DNA from: Thunnus maccoyii
Taxonomy: Eukaryota > Chordata > Actinopteri > Scombriformes > Scombridae
Assembly: GCF_910596095.1 (NCBI RefSeq)
Contig: NC_056538.1
Span: 15,734,501-15,798,500 of the forward strand
Direction of reading: 5' to 3'
DNA: 64,000 nt
Part shown: in pieces, positions 5,683 through 18,458 of the stretch
Layout: every line of letters starts with the position of its first letter
How positions within the stretch are numbered: position 1 is the first letter of the stretch
Position numbers and translations under genes: made by a program
Notes under the pieces: generated by a model
Database searches by the model: none
Seen by the model: the letters and a program-made list of their open reading frames with translations, nothing else
Told to the model about the DNA's origin: nothing

Positions 5683-8600
5683 TCATTCCTTCTCTAATAT
5701 GACACACCAGTTTCCCTGGTCGTGGTAGCTGCTCTGCACTTTGACTCCAGCCACCTGAACACACAGCTGCTCCAGCTCCCCCTGCTGGAACACGTGGTAA
5801 TAGCGGTGGAAGACAGGCGCCGAGCCGCTCTCAGGCTCTGACTTCAGACCGCAGCTGGACGCCTGAGTTGTGTCATTACTTGGACTGGGTTCAGACTTGC
5901 AAACTGCCATGGAGTCAGGCTCCTGGTTGGAGTTAAGACTGTTTGGGCAAGATCTATCAGAAATCGTTTTGGACTTTCCTTTCCTTTTATCCCTCTTCAC
6001 ACCTTCTCCTGACTCTCCCTCCCCTCTTCCTCCTCCTTTTTTCAGATGCCAGGGAACTAAAAGGTCCTGAGTGTTAAAGGCGGTGCGATTTGTGTGCACG
6101 CGAAGTTTCCCATCAGTCACTTTGCCAGAATCTGGTATGTCGTCTACAGGCCTGTAGTTCTCTGTGTGTGTTTTGTTGTTGTCTTCTAAGTGTCTGTCAG
6201 GGCCCTGGCTGTCTTCTGATATGCTGTTGTTTGGGCTGTGGTTCCCAGGATGCTCTTTGTTGTAGTCTTTGAGGTATTTGGACTTCTGCTGCTTGTACTC
6301 CTGTTCAAAAGCCCAAACATAGATGAGTGCTCGACCTCCAGACTTCAGGAGTCTTAACAGCTCCCTCACTGCTGCCAGCCGACGCTCCTGCAACACATTC
6401 ACAAACAGTTTTATTTGACCTTTTCAATCACAGAAACTAAACTCACAAATTCACTTAAAATGGACTTTTAAGAGACTTAGAAATGATGGTTGATTTAAGG
6501 TTGAATTTTTGCTCTGCCATTGTGATGTTTGATCAGTGTTGGAAATGAAACTGCGGAGGAAAGAATTAAGGAAGGAAGCCTGTCTCCAAAGTAGTAACAT
6601 TTCTGAGTGGGTTATTTCTTTAGTGTGTTGTTGCCCTGAAACAACTAGCAAAGAAAGTTGAATTTCAGTTTATATTTCTCTCTTTTTAGATGTCATAGAA
6701 TAATTTAGAATAATAAGGATTAATATTAGTATTTAATATTAAAAAACATTCCTATTCCTAATATTAGTGTGTCAGAGTCAGCAATAAGTTTTTCACAGAG
6801 ATTAAACTGTCACTGGTGTGTGTGTTCTGTACATACCTGTGTGGAAAAGTGGTGTATGACAGCTATAGAGATACAGGCGTCGCAGGAGGCTGTTCGTAGC
6901 GGGACACTGAGGGCGTCCGACACAAACGCCTGGAAACCCCTCTCTGCACAGATTTGGACAAGAGCACTACTACGATCGCAACCCACCTGAAAAAAGACGC
7001 AGGTATACAATGTCATTCACAAACAGGACCACAGGCAGGACAGGACCAAAAATTTATCAGCTGAGGAGTGGAGAAAGACACATTTTCATACAGATCCGCA
7101 GTTGCAAAAACCTTCACACAGAGTAGATTTTTTTTAATTTAAGGGTAGTAAAGGAATTAAAAATAGAGGAGCTATAGAAGTACATAGAGAAGAGTAGGTA
7201 GGAAGATGGATTAGATGCAGTGAAAGAGGAAAAAAAGAGATAACAGAGGAGAAATGGTTTAAGTGGAGAGAAGAGGAGGCGATTGGATGCAGGAATTTCC
7301 AACATTTTGTCTCATTGAGAAATTCAATCAAGCTTCATGAGTCACACGATCCCAAAAGAGACAGAGGTGATAAGAGATAGTGAGAAATCCTACACACACA
7401 TGCACTCAATCTGTTACTGACATGCAAACATGCAAAACTCAAGCTTTTTAATTTCAATTAAAGCTGCGTGTGTTAACAGTGTTAATCAGCAAGGGGAGAG
7501 AATGAGACAGGGAAAGGACGTCAGAAGAAAAGGGGGGGGTTTAGGACAGAAGAGAGAGGCAAAAAGAAAAAGCAGAGCGGCACAGAGGAATAGAAACAGA
7601 AAGAGAGAAAAAGTGGGTTGTAGAAAGTTGGAGTGTGACCTGCATGATCACAGTGTTCTCAATAATGATTTCATGGTTACGGTCTGCGTCAGGATAAGCT
7701 GCTTACACGCACCTCCCAAATCCCTAACATGAATATCCCAGTGTGCATACGTAAACAGAAAATTTAGGATATTACCATGGAAACTGAGCTAATGCAAACA
7801 ATGGCAGCCAACAGAAATTGGAGTGAGAGGAACACAACACCAAGGAAATCATCCCAAAGTGTATTACTTAGCTCATTTTAAATGGGACACAATGTTTACA
7901 CTTGAGTCAACTTAAAAAAAACAGACTAGTTACGAACTGATTAAACATATTTGCCTTCATGTCAACAATAATACTTGCTGTAGTACCACAACATTACCCA
8001 CATTAGCAACCTGACTCACACTGGGAGGTAAATAGGCAGCTTCTTGCTCAAGGAAAGTGATGCAGACCTCTCTTCGTCCTCTCTCTTGACTTCACTGTGG
8101 TGCAGAGAGGTGTCTGGCTTATGCAACATCTGCAACTGGAAGCTGAGGTCCTGCCACAGCTACTCTGTTACCATTTCATTTTATATTTATAAGAATAATG
8201 AGCACAAAAGCTGTGACCTTTGCAGTGCCTTTTTGGTTTAGAACTAAACTTTAAGTAACCCTGAAAAGGCGCTTTACCTGAATGCCTAAACATACAGCAT
8301 ATAAAAGCTGGGTGAGGAAAATGAAGTATTTAAATCTGTGTCATGCAATGGAAGTTTTATTTAAAGGAATAGTTCAAAATTTTGGGACACTCTTTCCAAT
8401 AGTGAGATGAAAATTTCCAAATTAATCTCACGTCTTTTCATTAAGTGCAAACTCAGAACTGGAGACTATCCGATCTTATCTTTAGCCTATCTTAGAATAA
8501 AGACTATATAGTATAGTATACTATAGTAGATTCTTCCTGAATGCTGATTTCTCTGTCAACTTTACACCTAATCGGGTTTCTAATCATCTTTTTTGAAGTA

Positions 8601-11600
8601 TGCGTGTGCATAATAAAATTGCAGACAGAAAGCACAGCACAGAGTGGCTGGATGAAAGGAGAGATCATTAGACATGCATCCTCATATTAAAAAATAATTC
8701 CAAATTACTAAAAACTAAAATTTAAACTAAAACAAAGTAGCCTGTAGACATCTAAATAAGTCAGTTTCTACTTTTGTGCTATAAGGAAGAGGCCCACTCT
8801 GTCTGTCTGTCTGCCTGCCTGCAGGAAGCACCGTCTTCTTTCACTAATATAGTTAAAATCATGCTTCCAAAATAAGCAGATTTACAGAAACCAGGTTACT
8901 ACAGTGCATGTAAACGCATCCCCTGATTACCCATATAACCTGATTTCTCTCAGTAACCTGGTTATATACTTAGGTGTATGTAAACACACTGATATTTACA
9001 GAAGACTGGTCTAAAGAAATGCTACACTATCTTAGATTGTCCTCCGGAATCTGTTGGAGCTCTGTCTTTTACATGTGAGGCAGCAGCAGAGGAGGTAACT
9101 CAGATGAAGATTCATTGTTTGTTGTCTCTGCTGTCTGTATATGTGCCCCTGAAACAGCCCTTGTAGTTATACCATGTTCCTGCACATAAACGACTGTTAT
9201 GAAACTGTGTGGCATTTCGCAGCCATAGTAATCTCTGAAGCGCTCGCAATAAAAATGGAATGAAAACGGAAATTTCCCCACAGGGATCAACACAGTGACG
9301 CAGGATTACAGACATTATTATAATATATGATGACACTCACAGCAATCACCTCTGGGTTGACACCCAGGTATTTCCCATTTCCACAGCCCACATCAGCTAG
9401 CACGCTTCCAGGTGGGAGCGAGGACAGGAAGTGGCAGACACGAGGCCATGGGGAGTGACGAGTGCTGCTGAAGTGGGAGGCGATGGCGTTGTACACCTGG
9501 TGCACATACTCCTCCTCCAGACGGGCTGCGTCGGTGTGGCAAGAAGGAAGTGAGGGGGGAGATGGTGGAGAGGTTGAGGGTACTGAGGGAGCTCCCTGAC
9601 TGTCACAGGCAGAAGGGAAGGCTGGAGAGAGGGAGGAGAAGAAGACATAAATGGGGTAAATGGTGAGAACAAAGAGTGATACATACACACCAACAATAAC
9701 ATTCAGTTGAAGCATGACCACGTCACTTTGACCAGATATGTTAAATTTCATTGCTTCATCAAACAAGCCGTCAGTTTTGTTTTAGCCTTTTGTTTTACAT
9801 ATTATCCACTCCATATTCAAGTCTCAAAAATTGAAAATTACTTTATACTTGACCCTTGCTAGTTAGCTAAGTGGCTACAGCTAGGTGGCTACAGTTAGGG
9901 AAGCTAACCAAACGCTGAAATATCTGAACAAGACAATTATCTCTTTAATCAAAGATGAAGTGGAGCTGGAATAAAAAGTCAAATTAAACTTGTAGTTATA
10001 TATAGTAATAGCTTGGCATTGGATTGAGCCGGGCTAGTTATTTCCCTGTTTTCACACTTTATGCTAAGCTAAGCTAACAAGCAGCTAGTTTTAGTGTCAT
10101 ATTTACTGCACAAACATGTGAGTGGTATCAACCTTCTCATCTAACTCTCAGCAAGACAGTGAGTAAGCATATTTGACAACATTTTAAATTTTAATGACCA
10201 CAAAACTTTCAGATGTTTATTTTTTTCAAGTTTTTTTTTTGACCTTTTGTATTTATTTGGTCACAGTAGAGATAGAAACAAGTGTGAGGGTGAGAGAGCG
10301 GGTTATTACTGGAAGTGAACAGAGGACTTTGCAATCACAGTATATGATATGCATCTTAACTACTAGGCCATCAGAGGCCCCAAGAGAAACGGATTTTTGT
10401 CCTTTACCCAGCACACTAAACAACCTGGCTAATCTGTGTTACGACTCCATTAAGAAGCAATGATTGGAGGCAAACTGTTTACATTATGAAATCTCTGATC
10501 TGCAACTAGCATGGTGCAAACCTTCAGATTAACAGACTCACAATGTTAGCGTATGCTGCTGTGTGGCTCACTGGGAGGATCATGGCACAAGCGATCTTAC
10601 AGATTTTTCCTCAGTGGCATCACTGCTACTAAAAATAGTCATGCTGCAGTGATGTGCTTTTGAAAATCATATAACATGAACCATACAGGTGGTGGTACAC
10701 AGACACATTTTAAGTTGAATTTGGGGAAAAACAATCAAACAATCACACAGAGTTTTATGTTATTGTTCACTTGCATGAATCTCACCACAGCAGCAGGGTT
10801 CATGTCTGATCTTGCGGAAAGTGAAAGAAGTGCGGGTGCCCCTCTTGCTCAGGGTGAGATTGCTGTTGGTTCCGGGGTTAGACATTGCATCAGCAGGGCA
10901 TTGTGGGTCGCAGGCTGGCACCATGTCAAACTTCCGAGGAGTAATCCTAAAAAAAAAAAAAAAAAAGAAAAGAAAACTATGATGCAGCAGTTGTTGATTT
11001 TCATAAACAAGCTCACAGCAGCTGATCTGTAAAATTGGTGTATTTTGTATGAACACAGGAAGATGTGGACCCTGAGCCTGCCTGCTTTAAATTTTATGTG
11101 AGGAGACTGAAATGTGAAAAAAAGAGTTGACTGTACAGTTACACAGTGCGAAGCCCAGAGAAAGGTCAGTACATTCAGTATTCCTATCCTTCACTACAAT
11201 GGTAGAGAAGGAGAAAAGCATTGTCTCTCCTCTGTGTATCGACCTGATAAGATAAACTGACTCCCAGCAGGAGAGACAGATCCACCTGACACAGTCCAGC
11301 TCACCCATGGGTCCAGAGGTATCTGCTCTCTCCTTTCATCACCAGGAGGCTTCGTCCTGGCAACAGCACGTGAACAACACGACCATCAGGATGGCGGAAC
11401 TCCATCACCGTCTGTAATAATACACAGACATGCACATTTTAAAAATCTGACCACTTATATGAAAACTGAGGAATGCACACAGAGAGAAACAAAAAAAACA
11501 AAATATGTCTCCATTAAATACAGAAGAGAGAAACTGAGGCAGACCTTTAAGATGCCAAAAATGTGTTGTGATGTATTCTATTTAGGAAAGAGTAATTATA

Positions 11601-14600
11601 CAGCTGTTTGTGTAAAGACAAAAATAAATCATTTGGTAGAAAAATGCATCTATATTCAGTAAAGTATCAGTAAAAGTATAATTTTGGTTATCAATACAAT
11701 ATCCAATAAGTAATGGCTTATTGGGCTTTTCAGTGTTTATCAGTCAGCTATGTGTCACCTTATTTGAGTGTTCAGTATTAAAGTTTCAGCTGGTTTGGCT
11801 GACTGTACAGCAGCAAATGTTTTCTTGTGAATTTTTTCTTCAACTATTACAAAACTACTGCAAGACTGTAACATCAAACATTAACTGAAATATTTTTTTT
11901 TTTTAAAAACCTCCTTCCTGTCACTTAACATTTTTGACGTCACCCAAAGAAAAAAAAAGGAAAGAAAAAAGACTCAGTACTTGCTCTCTCACTAGCAACC
12001 AGCACCACAGCGTTGGTGTTTGATCCTAATGTTTCCTTACAGGGCAAAACAGCATGAACTCTGCTGGGAAATTACATCTACACTATTTCAAACTGCATCT
12101 CTCCAACTTCTGACAGCAGGAAAATTGGATTTTGTGAAGAAGAGGCATGTGTATGTATCTGTGTGTGTGTGTGTGTGCGAGTGAGAGACATATGTGTTTG
12201 TATGTGATGTGAGAGAGCTATGTACATGCAACATAAGCAAATGAATTAGATCTTTCCCTGAAACTAAAACTGAAATCTCCATCTTACACACACACACACA
12301 CACAACAGACAGGACTGCGCTGTTCCCATCTGAGGAGTATTAGCCAATCAATGAAACCAGTGGAATGTGACTAAATCGATGGTGATGCTGGCAGCTGCTC
12401 ACACACACACACACACACACACACCTATGGGCATTATTTATTCTCTCTCTGACTTTAGCAAACATAAACAAGCTCAATAAACCTGGAAAGTGCAACTCTT
12501 ATTTTAAATACATAATTACAGGCAACCAATTCAAGTTAAAGTGCCCTGTCGAGCTTTCTTGTAAACAAAGTTTCTGTTTACATTCAGCATTTCTCACCAA
12601 AATCCAATGCTTGTATCCTTGAGGTCTGACAGATGTGCATTTCTTTCCTCATGAAACCTTTGCAAAGCTGATTTTTCTTAAAAGTTTGAAATCTGCACTG
12701 TTTACACCCATGTTTACTTGCTAGCAGGCTTCTTCTTCTCTGCCTTTGTTGGTGCATTGCTTCACACTTAATGCATTTACTTTTTGGTGGAACTGAAATG
12801 AATCAAATCAAGTTAATCAAATGGAGTGGAGCCTTTTTGATGCAATGATTCTTTACCGCAAAGAATCCGAACCAAATCAAATTACTGTTACATCCACAGA
12901 TTCACAGAATGCTACAAAATACACAGTATGTGACACAGTCCTACTGAGAGTCGAAAGCTCAGACAAAAAAAAATACACTGCACTCACACACACATGCTGT
13001 CTGCCGGTCTGTGTGTGTGTGACAGATGCTGTGACAGATGACATGCGAGTGCTAATAGAGCCCCTGTGTTTCAGACAAGTAGGGACAGATGGGTGTTTCT
13101 CTACATCGGTCACCCTGCAGAGACTGAACTAGCATCCCAGCACCCGCTGTTTAAAGGAAAAAGCGCATCTCTTCTGTTCATTCATCTGCATGCTCCATGC
13201 TGCATTAACAGGAATACCACAGAGGGCGAGAGAGTATGATGATGATGTGTGCGTCAGAGAGCGAGAGAGAGAGAGAGAAAAGAATGAGATGTAGCAAGCA
13301 AGGTGACAAAATGTTCTCCGTAAAGGACACAAGATAGGAAACATACTGTTTTGGACACACACACACACACACACACACATGCACACACTCATCTTGGAGT
13401 GCTGTGCCCCATGGGACAGCGGTCAGTGAAGTGACACTTAATTTGATTGATCCAATGCAGACACAGAAAGAAAAACAAGTGTCTGGAAAAACACTTTATT
13501 TCCATTTACGTGTAGCCATTTATCTGCTGTATTGGTGTTTTTAAGATCATCACTTTTTATCTTTAAATGTTTAACTGTCATTTTTAATTATAGATGAATA
13601 GACATTGAGGTCTATTGGTCAATAATGGCTTGATTGCTGATTGATTTACTGACCCACATTTATATGGCGAGTATTTTTCTGTTCCACGTTTTGCCACATC
13701 GTCCACAGATTGTTCACTAGAGTTTGTGAAAACGTTAGAGGCCTAAACTAAACAGATCCTGACTGAGTGACGTCATACCTTTGCCCCCAGGCTCAGTGAC
13801 AGGATGGTGTCCTCGAAGGCAGAGTGAGTGTCCACATGAGGAGGAATACCTGCAAAAAGTAAAAACACACATGTAAAAGGAAAATAGGTCGACCAGTTGA
13901 AATACAGTAAGAATAAATAAGAAACTCGATAGCATTCTTGACATTTAATAATAAATTTGAGTTTATGTGATTGAGTTAAAATAACATAATTAATAGCAAC
14001 TCCGTTACCGAAGTCCTTATTTCAGCTCTAAAAAGGGATGCTAGTGCTCTAATTCTATTAACTTAAGAACCAAGGATTTTCAATCATCCTTCATCGGCAT
14101 GTTGGAAAGGTTCTGCTACCACCTTGTGGTAAAAATCAATAACATCTATTTGTGAGCTCCTTTAGTTTTTATTTAGTTTGAAACTGTGTCTGAAATACTC
14201 GACTTTTAGTTTTTCTATCTTTTATTTTATTTCCTTTAAACACATACAGTGTACCTACAACCTATGAAATAAATAAACTACCTCACATTACTCATACATC
14301 TGTATTTTTTATCTTTCAGTGCCTCTCGAGCCTCTCTTTAAACTCTCCAGCCCTGTGTGTGCTTAAAATCCCTCCAGCCCATATGATTAAACTCAATATG
14401 GTATTGATTAGGTATTGGCTGATCATGCTGAGAATCACTTCTTCCACCAAATATTGATTGTTGAACACACCCCCAAACCACCACCCAGGCGAAGACATTG
14501 ATATTTCTGTGAATTATTCATGCTTATAAACTATTTAATTTTTAACAGCACTGCATGTTTTTCGTATTCTGAACAGCTTTCTGCATTTGTGATCAATACT

Positions 14601-14807
14601 TCAAGCAATATCAAAGGTTTGATTTCAGCTAGTTTCACCATATGTGATAACACAAGTCAGGAGAGTGTGACAGAACAAAGGTATGACTGGAATAACAAAC
14701 CCTGTCCAGACTCATACTGGTTGACAGTCAGCTGGTCTGGCATGATCTCCATGTGTCCGTTCTTCACACACCGCTGCAGAACAGACTGACACTCCTCAGG
14801 TAGACCT

Positions 14808-14885
<78 letters not shown>

Positions 14886-17800
14886 ACACGCTAAGCTCCT
14901 CTGTTTTTTTGAATTTTATATCAATATATCAATTTACTTTCTCCTCCACTATTACAATGTCCGACCGTCATGACCTAGTATATAATGGCACGCTGAGCTA
15001 TTAAATACTGAAAGGTCACCATGCAGAGCTGAAAACAGAAATGTTGAGATATGTAGCATTAAAAAATCTCAGTCTCTGCTGAATAATAAGCAATACAACT
15101 TGTACTATTTCTGATTTTTGGCAACTTTTTGGCAAACTGTGTCCCAATGTCATACAGTAGGATGATCATCAGTGAGTAAAATGTTATTTGAAGTGATAGG
15201 AATGACGACCAAAACTATGAAAATCAGAAACACAAAAACAAATATTTCTTGTCCAGGTGCGGAGTCCCAAAAAATTGTAGGTGAAGTCAAAACTATGAAA
15301 AAAAATGCAACTCATAAAGCCAAAAAATACTCACCTGCAGGTAACGGCTTGTCTTTGTCCACATTGTTGTTGTCATAGCGAAATTCAAAACCATAATGTT
15401 TGACTCTTCTGTGCTTCAGAGCTTTTTGAGCTAAAAGACATTAGATCAATCAATTAGTTGGCTAATCAGCCAAAAGATCGATAAGATCGTGTTCTTATAT
15501 GTGTATCATATAGAACAGCTTTGTACGACAACATGATGAAAAATAACTATTCATAATTCATTAAGACTTGCATCGAGTGTTCTAGTGCATAAATTTACTA
15601 CAATTACTATACTTTTTTCAATCTAACTGTAATTTTGAGAATATTTTATCCTTCAAACTAGTTTTTAATCAATATTGTATAATCTATAAGACTTACTGTA
15701 GGTTTATAATCAACACTCTGGGTGAAAATAAAGACGAGTTCCTGCATAGCAGCTTAAGATGCAACACAACAACCACACACATGCTCATAAAACACAATAT
15801 GCAGCCCCTCACCAGTGACATCATCATCAGTGTGCGACCAGTCTACAGCGGCGAGCAGCAGAGCCTCTTCCTCTGGAGACACAAAGTCTTCCACCAACAC
15901 TAACCCCTCTGGCAGAGGGACAGACGCCTCCTTTTCACAGGTTACTGCATACACACACGTACAGTAGAAACAATGAGGCTCACTCTACTGGCTATAAAAA
16001 CATGTGGAAGATATGATTTGTGGAGCACATGGTTGACAAGTGAGATAAACAATATGTTTCAAACAAGCATAGCGCTTGTATGTGTGCAAATGTTTAAGAC
16101 GAGTACCTGAGTCGACAAAAATGAGATAGAGAGTGACACTGTTCTCTCCACATTGCAGCTTTTGGCCATTAAGCTGGACATGGGCTTTCCGAGCAGTTTC
16201 CTCTGATCTGCAGACAGAACAATGATATCCACAGTAAGAGTCAATGCCTGCACCAGATAGAAAAACGATCCCAAAGATGTAACGTATTGTTCATGCAGCA
16301 CCTGTACCTGTACGTGACAAAAGCATAGGGCTTGTAAGGGGGCATAACCAGAGTCTCCACCTCTCCCATCTCTTTCAGCACAGCGGAGAGCTCCTCACGA
16401 CCGACGCCGTTCCCCAGGCCGCCGTTAGCCACCACCAAACTCTGCAGAGGAGACAGAACAGTAGACTTGTTGTTTATCAGACTGGTTGCATTAAAGGACA
16501 ATTTTTCAAGTCTGTCAGGTGCCCAGATGAACACTGAAATAGGGTTATTTTGCCATAAAGTAGATTTGATTTATTGATTAGAACAGTGTGCAGTTTTAAA
16601 CATTAAAGATGCACTGCACCGGAGTTAGCTCAAAGCTAATTTGCATCCGTAGTCCCCCACAATCAAAACATACAACAGCACAACAACAAACAGTACCAAG
16701 CAAAAAAAAAAAAAAAAAAACACATAGAACACACCATACAAAATACAAAGCTACACACAACAGCAAATCACATACACCCACAATGTCAGTTAGAAATTAA
16801 TAATGTAAACTTGGCAAATTAAAAGCAAGACTAACCATCCCTTCATAATGGACTTACAATGTAAGTGATGGGGGCCAAAATCCACAAGACTCCTTCTGTG
16901 CAAAAATGTATTTAAGTTTATCTGAAGCTTATATGAGGCTTCAGCAGTCTGAGTTAGTCATATCAAGTGGATATCTGCCACATGTACTTCTTTTTAGCAT
17001 CAAATTCCCTCTTTGTGTTTCCCTGTTGAGCTGCGTTGGGAGTATAGCAACAAAAACAGGGACTTTGGCACTGAAACGTTGAAACATATGTACTTAATTT
17101 CACTAATAACGCTTATTTTTAAATGCATTTTTGCACAAAATGATTTTGGCCACCATCACCTACATTGAAAGCACATTTGAAGGGGATCTTTTAAAAACCA
17201 GTGTGAACAGGAGGAATGATCACAGCATGGAAAACTTGACTGTTGTTTTAAGACAGACTTGAAAACTTGCGAACCTGTCCTTTAAGTTCATTGCGTTAAG
17301 TCCTGCACCACCAGAATGAGCAGCTTCTTCCCCTTTCTGTCAGACTGCTGAACACCTAACAGCCTCCATAGTCACATAAACAATGTCTTGTGTTTTTGTC
17401 TTGATGGTTTTTAGTTTTAGTCAGACGTTGATGATGACAAGCTGTAAACAAATAAACTTGACTGTAACCAAGCCCTTATTATTTCCTAATACTGACTCAA
17501 CAAAGTCCAAGAACCACATACTAACTTTACAGACAACACTTTGTTGATCCCAGTGGGGGGAATTCAGGTGTTACAGCAGCTGGGAAAAAGTCTTGGAATA
17601 AATATACTAGTGCTGCAACTAATGATTATTTTGAGTATCAATTAATCTGTTGATTATTTTCTCGATTAGCCGATTAGTTGTTTGGTCCATGAGATGTCAG
17701 AAAATGGTGAAAAATGTTGATCACGGTTTCCCAAAGCCCAAGGTCTTTAAATGTCTTGTTTTGTCCACAATCCAAAGTTTTCAGTTTACTATCATAGAGG

Positions 17801-18458
17801 AGTAAAGAAACCAGAAAATACCCACGCTTGAGAAGCTGAAATCAGAGATTTTGGAATTTTTTTCTTTAAAAAAAAATGACTCAAAAGATTAATAGATTAT
17901 TAAAATATTCGGCGGTTAATTTAATTGTTGGCAACTAAAAGAAAAAGCATACAATGCAGATTTTTATATAGTATTTCTTCCTTTGCTGCCTTCTTTTGAC
18001 CCTGATTTCTAACTTCCATGTTGACTTGTTTACGGTCGGCGTTGTTTTATTTAATGTCTTTTAGGATAAATTACAACAATATATGACTGAAATCACAAGT
18101 TGCAAGCAGATATTAAAGCAATGACTGATCATTTGACTGTGTTTTAAGTAGCTGTCTAGCGTGTCTTCTTTTTTAAACTAGCAGTCAACTAACATGAGCT
18201 GAAAAGACAACCTAAATGCGTATTTTGTTTACGTTCATGTTAGAGGAAGGTACATGTGAGCTAGCTTTCTTCACGATCAGCTGCAACTTCCTGTTTATAA
18301 ACGTCATTGTTCTGCGTCACCTTGGTCGGCTGCGATGTCGTACTGATGCCTTCATGTTTCAGCAAAGTGTGACTAGCTTTTATTTGTTTTCGAAGAACTT
18401 TCTTCTCCTCTTTATTCCTCCTGACAACGTTGGTGGTGTTTTCCACGCTTGAATTCAT
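5683..18458 (-). CDS. ALKBH8: ALKBH8, tRNA wobble-uridine methyltransferase/hydroxylase (12 coding exons, complete)
   Basis: Exons are 18458-18321, 16441-16308, 16207-16107, 15944-15813, 15430-15335, 14805-14701, 13849-13779, 11411-11305, 10946-10786, 9621-9341, 6986-6837 and 6387-5683. Phases join exactly, giving 726 residues against 664 in human. Order: basic N-terminus (1-46); RRM (about 47-125); AlkB domain with iron ligands H240/D242 ('IPPHVDTH') and H294 ('RYLWTHG') and 2-oxoglutarate arginines R333/R339; Cys346, 348 and 354 at the spacing of the human zinc site; SAM motif DVGCGNG at 425-431; C-terminal [11 protein letters not shown]. Family knowledge: with TRMT112 it forms mcm5U at tRNA wobble position 34, and the AlkB part hydroxylates it in tRNA-Gly(UCC); this supports selenoprotein decoding. 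Exon 12 carries a Gly/Glu/Lys/Ser-rich insert that explains most of the extra length. The start was chosen by match to the human N-terminus; an upstream in-frame ATG lies inside a repeat. Confidence 0.95.
8360..8520. repeat. Teleost dispersed repeat fragment ('ttaaaggaatagttc' type) in ALKBH8 intron 10
   Basis: Begins 'ttaaaggaatagttcaaaa' and continues with 'agtgagatgaaaat', matching a repeat I recognise as abundant in percomorph genomes. A more complete copy in reverse orientation lies at 9840-10185. Probably non-autonomous; superfamily not assigned. Confidence 0.5.
9840..10185 (-). repeat. Teleost dispersed repeat copy in ALKBH8 intron 9
   Basis: On the minus strand it contains 'gagagttagatgagaagg', 'ttgataccactcacatg' and 'gcttagcttagcataaag', all typical of the same fish repeat as the 8360-8520 fragment. 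Related words occur at 22215-22290. No coding content. Confidence 0.55.
12284..12423. repeat. Two (CA)n microsatellites in ALKBH8 intron 8
   Basis: Short pure (CA)n tracts at about 12286-12303 and 12401-12423; a (GT)n tract lies at about 12162-12176. Intron 8 also carries (GA)n at 13257-13278 and (CA)n at about 13357-13378. Confidence 0.9.
14810..14889. repeat. (CA)34 microsatellite abutting the ALKBH8 exon 6 acceptor
   Basis: 34 uninterrupted CA units at 14811-14878, then AA and a few more units. In the ALKBH8 transcript this is (UG)34 directly followed by UCCAG and exon 6, so it stands where the polypyrimidine tract should be. Confidence 0.95.
16838..17290. repeat. Hairpin-forming teleost repeat (MITE-like) in ALKBH8 intron 1
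   Basis: Left arm 'aatgtaagtgatgggggcc' (about 16858-16876) pairs with right arm 'ggccaccatcacctacatt' (about 17148-17166). The outer flanks 'cccttc' and 'gaagggg' also pair. The unit between, with 'gaggcttcagcagtctgag', matches a common percomorph repeat. No protein coding. Confidence 0.65.
17607..17938 (+). mobile_element. hAT-like MITE copy in ALKBH8 intron 1
   Basis: Starts 'tagtgctgcaactaatgat' and carries the family's 'gatgtcagaaaatggtgaaa' core and 'cgattagccgattagttg'; truncated before the right terminal repeat. Same family as the intact copy at 41354-41537. Confidence 0.65.

Follow-up and report, generated by a model that had tools for sequence, protein, structure and literature searches.

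Exon 6 of the ALKBH8 gene of Thunnus maccoyii is preceded by a GT microsatellite in the place of a polypyrimidine tract, and its acceptor is likely to be an ordinary working one, with a distant branch point, probably weak, by which the exon would be included in most transcripts. It would be one of an estimated several hundred acceptors of this kind in the genome. Our analysis of the 64,000-nucleotide stretch of DNA that contains the gene (the window) and of the whole assembly established the anatomy of ALKBH8 at this junction, the fact that no other acceptor in intron 5 would be productive, and the recurrence of such tracts beside coding exons.

ALKBH8 is encoded on the minus strand of the window, with the following parts needed here:

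5683..16441, minus strand: exons 2-12 with their introns, from the joined frame and PDB and Pfam matches
18321..18458, minus strand: exon 1, with its ATG at 18458 and its end at 18321 (Pfam ALKBH8_N match; limits set by eye)
15335..15430, minus strand: exon 5, 96 nt, phase 1-1, donor CAG/GTGAGT (9/9 consensus)
14701..14805, minus strand: exon 6, 105 nt, phase 1-1, encoding a segment that ends in NQYESGQ, before HVD
14695..14703, minus strand: exon 6 donor AGG/GTTTGT, agreeing with the consensus at 6/9 places
13779..13849, minus strand: exon 7, 71 nt, carrying HVD

Joined together, exons 2-12 yield 680 codons free of stops, to which exon 1 adds 46, and they contain matches to RRM_1, 2OG-FeII_Oxy_2 and methyltransferase models of Pfam. 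They match the human ALKBH8 RRM/AlkB structure PDB 3thp (E 1.8e-115), in an alignment that is gapless at both exon 6 junctions, and a tRNA methyltransferase chain in the PDB (E 2.7e-35). The earlier note had described exon 6 as a frame-neutral exon of 105 nt, phase 1 on entry and exit, that covers residues ~201-235 and holds the NQY segment ahead of HVD. The joined exons bear this out, the residue numbers once the codons of exon 1 are added, with HVD encoded in exon 7. The donor score of exon 6 is equalled by 5 of the other 9 ALKBH8 donors. Elsewhere in the window, at ~28.3-31.0 kb on the minus strand, BTB, BACK and Kelch matches in Pfam belong to what is presumably a KBTBD/KLHL-type gene.

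Intron 5 is 529 nt long and ends in the following elements, given in transcript sense:

14878..14889, minus strand: (GT)5 TT, the outer, imperfect part of the tract
14810..14877, minus strand: (GT)34, unbroken
14806..14809, minus strand: CCAG, the acceptor of intron 5

The plus strand shows (AC)34 at 14810-14877, then AA, then (AC)5 up to 14889, and the transcript reads (GT)5 TT (GT)34 CCAG/GTCTAC. That 34 UG units end five bases (UCCAG) before exon 6, as had been claimed, can be read directly; counted as GT, the distance is four bases (CCAG). The claim that the repeat stands in for the polypyrimidine tract also holds: the longest pyrimidine run between -40 and -4 is 2 nt, the shortest among the 11 ALKBH8 acceptors (next 3), and the nearest adenosine lies at -87, the farthest among them (next -32). 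The plain pyrimidine count (11/20) is not extreme, with 10 and 11 at two other acceptors, because U is every second base of the tract. CCAG directly abuts the repeat, a short U tract between the two being absent. If the four GU-sense tracts of ALKBH8 with at least 6 units were placed at random, ~0.05 acceptors would have a tract end within 10 nt. For a single gene this is unusual; in the whole genome, several hundred such acceptors are estimated to exist, that of exon 6 among them. The acceptor of ALKBH8 exon 4 (15945-15963 of the window, minus strand, TGTACGTGTGTGTATGCAG) is likewise UG-rich.

Since the tract contains neither A nor AG, it can supply no adenosine branch point and no rival acceptor, and with the nearest adenosine at -87 an adenosine branch point must sit upstream of the tract. 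Two stretches of intron 5 are of interest:

14890..14930, minus strand: stretch preceding the tract, with candidate branch points (putative branch use)
15029..15051, minus strand: pyrimidine-rich upstream AG (TATCTCAACATTTCTGTTTTCAG), the use of which leads to a stop codon

The A nearest to the tract, at 14892, lies in CTTAGC and does not match yUnAy; the nearest yUnAy motifs in intron 5 are TTGAT, with their A at 14921 and 14929, 116 and 124 nt from exon 6. AGs inside the candidate stretch end at 14891, 14896, 14899 and 14901, and the AG previous to the exon 6 acceptor is 83 nt upstream of it. Altogether 27 AGs precede the acceptor in intron 5. A productive alternative acceptor among them is ruled out, since 25 run into a stop, including all seven that preserve the frame, and the two stop-free ones, before 14900 and 14890, both shift it. 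Judged by eye, the pyrimidine-rich AG immediately before 15028 would be a stronger acceptor than CCAG, yet a stop follows. The earlier note had allowed for another upstream acceptor being the one in use; with no frame-preserving AG free of stops (0/7), full-length ALKBH8 needs the CCAG adjoining the tract.

These features could be explained by a GT microsatellite that grew between the branch point and the 3´ AG of intron 5 and thereby took the place of the polypyrimidine tract. The branch point would then be found before the tract, at least ~87 nt from exon 6, and CCAG would be the first usable AG that the spliceosome meets beyond the repeat. Such an acceptor should work, perhaps weakly, with exon 6 included in most transcripts. 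One weak point of this explanation is that AGs downstream of the yUnAy motifs at 116 and 124 nt could be selected ahead of CCAG. Because length errors are common in long dinucleotide tracts, an assembly or collapsed-microsatellite artefact might be suspected; such an origin is scarcely credible here, given the clean flanks, the intact reading frame and the single genomic place of exon 6 DNA found in a whole-genome search.

How common such acceptors are was assessed in the genome (782 Mb, 54 contigs). The pattern (GT)12NCAG occurs at 1708 places (890+818) and its read-backwards control at 459 (208+251), and (GT)12NGAC occurs at 440 places (215+225) and its read-backwards form CAGN(TG)12 at 1004 (475+529). 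CAG is favoured over GAC on both sides of the tract and more strongly on the 3´ side (odds 1.77, p 1.9e-13). Since CAG exceeds GAC on the other side of the tract as well (1004 vs 459), the excess of (GT)12NCAG must be below half of 1708, and we estimate it at ~700-750. At long tracts, (GT)30CCAG was found at 28 places, ALKBH8 included, against 27 for its read-backwards form; (GT)30GGAC occurs 32 times and read-backwards CAGG(TG)30 98 times, counts that do not form a matched pair with those of (GT)30CCAG, so that no excess is shown at that length.

All 100 places listed among the 1708 were read; they come from contigs C1 and C2 only and are a non-random sample. At 15 of them a recognisable coding exon follows the tract, 13 supported by a Pfam or PDB match and 2 being paralogs recognised by eye (L091 and L093, which were not among the peptides submitted to Pfam and were counted as coding since they are alike to L090). 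Scaled to 1708, this would give ~250 places, beside an excess estimate of ~700. The 21 peptides given to Pfam were chosen by eye from the listed places, the others being left out, and 11 of them had matches with E no higher than 0.01: Fringe-like, amino-acid permease, TSP1_ADAMTS, MRG, 7tm_1, EMI, Na/H exchanger, protein kinase, Myb, CH and LRR, with five (AA_permease_2, EMI, Pkinase, Myb, LRR_6) below Pfam's own cut-off. Two Pfam-negative peptides had PDB matches (WASF1 1.8e-15, MAP4K3 7.5e-10), and eight submitted peptides (L017, L024, L031, L037, L071, L079, L088, L095) had no Pfam match at all. The sequence stays open for 150 nt or more after 40/90 tract CAGs and after 225/894 control CAGs at the same loci (p 0.00016); for at least 300 nt the numbers are 7/90 and 46/894. 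In the 45 nt preceding the tract, a yUnAy motif was found at 9/15 coding sites and 35/75 others, with no clear enrichment at the coding ones. Exon 6 of ALKBH8 belongs to the same class: homology supports it as a coding exon, and at least 12 GT units run directly into its NCAG. It is the genome-wide control that tips the balance towards an ordinary working acceptor.

A MAP4K3-like gene provides the closest and a direct analogue of ALKBH8 intron 5. Two consecutive kinase exons (L083, G000:C2:188088-191215, and L082, G000:C2:187845-190972) lie behind 26 and 36 GT units and, when joined, match PDB 5j5t without gaps. The intron between them has only 152 nt, ends in CACTGACGCTAG(GT)36GCAG and is roughly half GT repeat; a yUnAy motif sits just upstream of the tract with its A 83 nt from the exon, whereas the corresponding motifs of ALKBH8 lie at a greater distance (116 and 124 nt), the A at 87 not matching yUnAy. 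Like ALKBH8, the MAP4K3 (GT)36, WASF1-like (GT)23 and CH-domain (GT)24 loci have a coding exon whose NCAG acceptor directly follows a GT tract; unlike exon 6, all three exons have lengths that are not multiples of 3.

Two groups of copies were seen among the places read. Three paralogous LRR exons on contig C2 (L090, L091, L093), which we take to be NLR-like, have a common CCAG acceptor behind GT tracts of 27, 30 and 12 units, the exon being kept while the tract length varies. Four copies ~33 kb apart at G000:C1:37.83-37.94 Mb (L063-L066) have tracts of 24, 27, 17 and 18 units, an identical CCAG and the same short downstream peptide, in which a coding exon was not recognised by eye.

The earlier note had proposed that the repeat length may tune skipping of exon 6. 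According to such a CFTR-like switch, TDP-43 and partners on the UG tract would block U2AF and cause partial, length-dependent skipping, leaving a methyltransferase without the AlkB hydroxylase. The precedent it invoked is sound, CFTR exon 9 being a known case of UG-tract skipping (PMC12171016, in excerpt), and a preprint on splicing STRs in human cortex, as excerpted, ties TARDBP binding to GT repeats (PMC13174678). Over-expression of TDP-43 is described as causing constitutive exons that have shorter UG motifs to be skipped, in a largely species-specific way (excerpt of PMC11163724), cryptic exons repressed by TDP-43 are said to contain UG runs (excerpt of PMC5446763), and an excerpt of PMC12276007 states that human UG repeats of at least 12 are enriched near splice sites. 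Human exons with AG-free zones of at least 100 nt are reported to be alternatively spliced more frequently (PMC1431707, in excerpt), and the available text of PMC5224494 associates a longer distance between branch point and acceptor with skipping, adding that AGs in this zone are used only if they are >8-12 nt from the branch point. The genome has two loci with a TDP-43 N-terminal domain (TDP-43-like), and exon 6 is frame-neutral. The switch hypothesis is a reasonable one with a known precedent, and length-tuned skipping could occur.

What tells against it comes from the other exons. Among the 10 internal coding exons 2-11 of ALKBH8, exons 4, 5, 6 and 11 are multiples of 3, and exons 4 (132 nt) and 5, both phase 1 to 1, are as frame-neutral as exon 6; we therefore do not take frame neutrality to indicate that skipping is regulated. 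At 14 tract sites with a donor picked by eye, the exon length is not divisible by 3 in 8 and divisible in 6, three of the latter being the paralogous LRR exons. Since GT tracts stand before frame-shifting exons in 8/14 cases, they do not as a rule act as skip signals in this genome. On balance we think the switch unlikely.

Removing exon 6 in silico lowered the AlkB-family Pfam score from 74.5 to 51.1 bits (with a test protein also shortened C-terminally) and reduced the coverage of the Pfam profile from 2-194 to 109-194, the N-terminal part of the domain being gone, and the RRM and methyltransferase matches were kept. Skipping would remove NQY and retain HVD; in AlkB, the N and Y of the former bind 2-oxoglutarate and the H and D of the latter hold the iron. 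The form without exon 6 had been called methyltransferase-only; RRM and HVD would be kept as well, so the label exceeds the evidence. It might also be that the protein simply misfolds. The methyltransferase is described as making mcm5U and the AlkB part as making (S)-mchm5U (excerpts of PMC10978050 and PMC4051686), and a stable form lacking exon 6 would uncouple the two steps. Alternative ALKBH8 mRNAs have been identified, with no exon 6 event named in the excerpted text of PMC13026028.

Pairing of the UG tract with other parts of the pre-mRNA was scanned in 60-nt stretches, and the best partner was the following:

12151..12210, minus strand: AC-rich stretch in intron 7, predicted at -79.7 kcal/mol; pairing would enclose exons 6 and 7

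The best predicted partners in introns 5 and 6 reach -22.1 and -31.1 kcal/mol, with a mean over all stretches of -16.2 kcal/mol. For zebrafish, a review describes introns with dinucleotide repeats at opposite ends that are bridged by AC/GT pairing (PMC9198270, in excerpt), and a similar hairpin, in which the 3´ GT tract pairs with a 5´ AC tract of the same intron and substitutes for U2AF2, might be imagined for ALKBH8, where the GT half exists. Intron 5, however, contains no AC tract, and its best partner falls well short of that in intron 7, which leads us to reject a bridging hairpin within intron 5. Across the genome sample, a sense AC tract of at least 6 units within 1450 nt upstream was found at 1/13 coding sites against 15/77 others (p 0.45; L082 and L085 are placed among the others, and introns longer than the stretch read escape the count). 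Most coding GT-acceptor sites that were read are without a near AC partner, and a zebrafish-like mechanism for ALKBH8 is extremely improbable. An AC tract downstream of the exon was seen at 4/15 coding sites and 12/75 others; at L016, L047, L077 and L089 a GT tract before the acceptor is accompanied by an AC tract soon past the donor, and pairing across the exon is possible there.

Pairing over a longer distance is the other structural option: the UG tract could pair with the intron 7 AC tract, or fold into a poly(UG) quadruplex, and so mask the acceptor or loop out exons. The strong predicted duplex with 12151-12210 speaks for the first form. For the second, 12 repeats make one fold, so that 34 might hold two, and long pUG RNAs are stated to form double folds at 24 repeats or more (excerpt of PMC12276007). 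Against long-range pairing, intron 7 has UG tracts nearer its AC tract (12286-12304, 12400-12424, 13355-13379), and looping out exons 6 and 7 together (105+71 nt) would shift the frame. We judge this group of explanations very unlikely and prefer an ordinary working GT-tract acceptor.

Our results provide a clean example, together with a genome-wide estimate, of microsatellites replacing the polypyrimidine tract in a vertebrate genome. In a further-reaching and quite doubtful scenario, a mutable GT microsatellite would set the distance between branch point and AG at ~700 acceptors, mostly without a zebrafish-type AC partner, with ALKBH8 near the long end, where length differences between individuals would alter the inclusion of a catalytic exon and tRNA wobble hydroxylation. 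If tract length alters splicing, hundreds of genes would have a fast-mutating splicing setting, and in ALKBH8 the effect could be read out, since the two activities of the enzyme leave different marks on tRNA (PMC10978050, PMC4051686, both in excerpt).

The ALKBH8 acceptor can be compared with several known systems. With CFTR, where (TG)m(T)n in intron 8 precedes exon 9, it shares a UG repeat immediately upstream of the acceptor, a candidate TDP-43 site; unlike CFTR, it has no U tract before the AG, and its 34 units compare with 11-13 in CFTR (PMC12171016, in excerpt). As in exons with distant branch points, an AG-free stretch lies between the probable branch point and the acceptor (excerpts of PMC1431707 and PMC5224494). 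Unlike the class with at least 100 nt in the excerpted PMC1431707, the zone in ALKBH8 measures 83 nt to the previous AG and is a microsatellite, and AGs near the branch may be skipped (PMC5224494, in excerpt). Intron 5 is like the AC/GT introns of zebrafish in the GT repeat at its 3´ boundary and unlike them in having no AC repeat at its own 5´ boundary. These zebrafish intron-bridging introns were reportedly the subject of work by Lin et al. in 2016. In human apoA-II intron 2, Mercado and co-workers are said to have found in 2005 that (GU)16 replaces the polypyrimidine tract before a normally included exon. Their paper is cited in PMC6349704. The apoA-II tract is shorter than the one in ALKBH8 and is reportedly followed by GGGCAG; with a GU tract in the pyrimidine tract's place in both genes, apoA-II intron 2 is the nearest precedent for such an exchange before an included exon.
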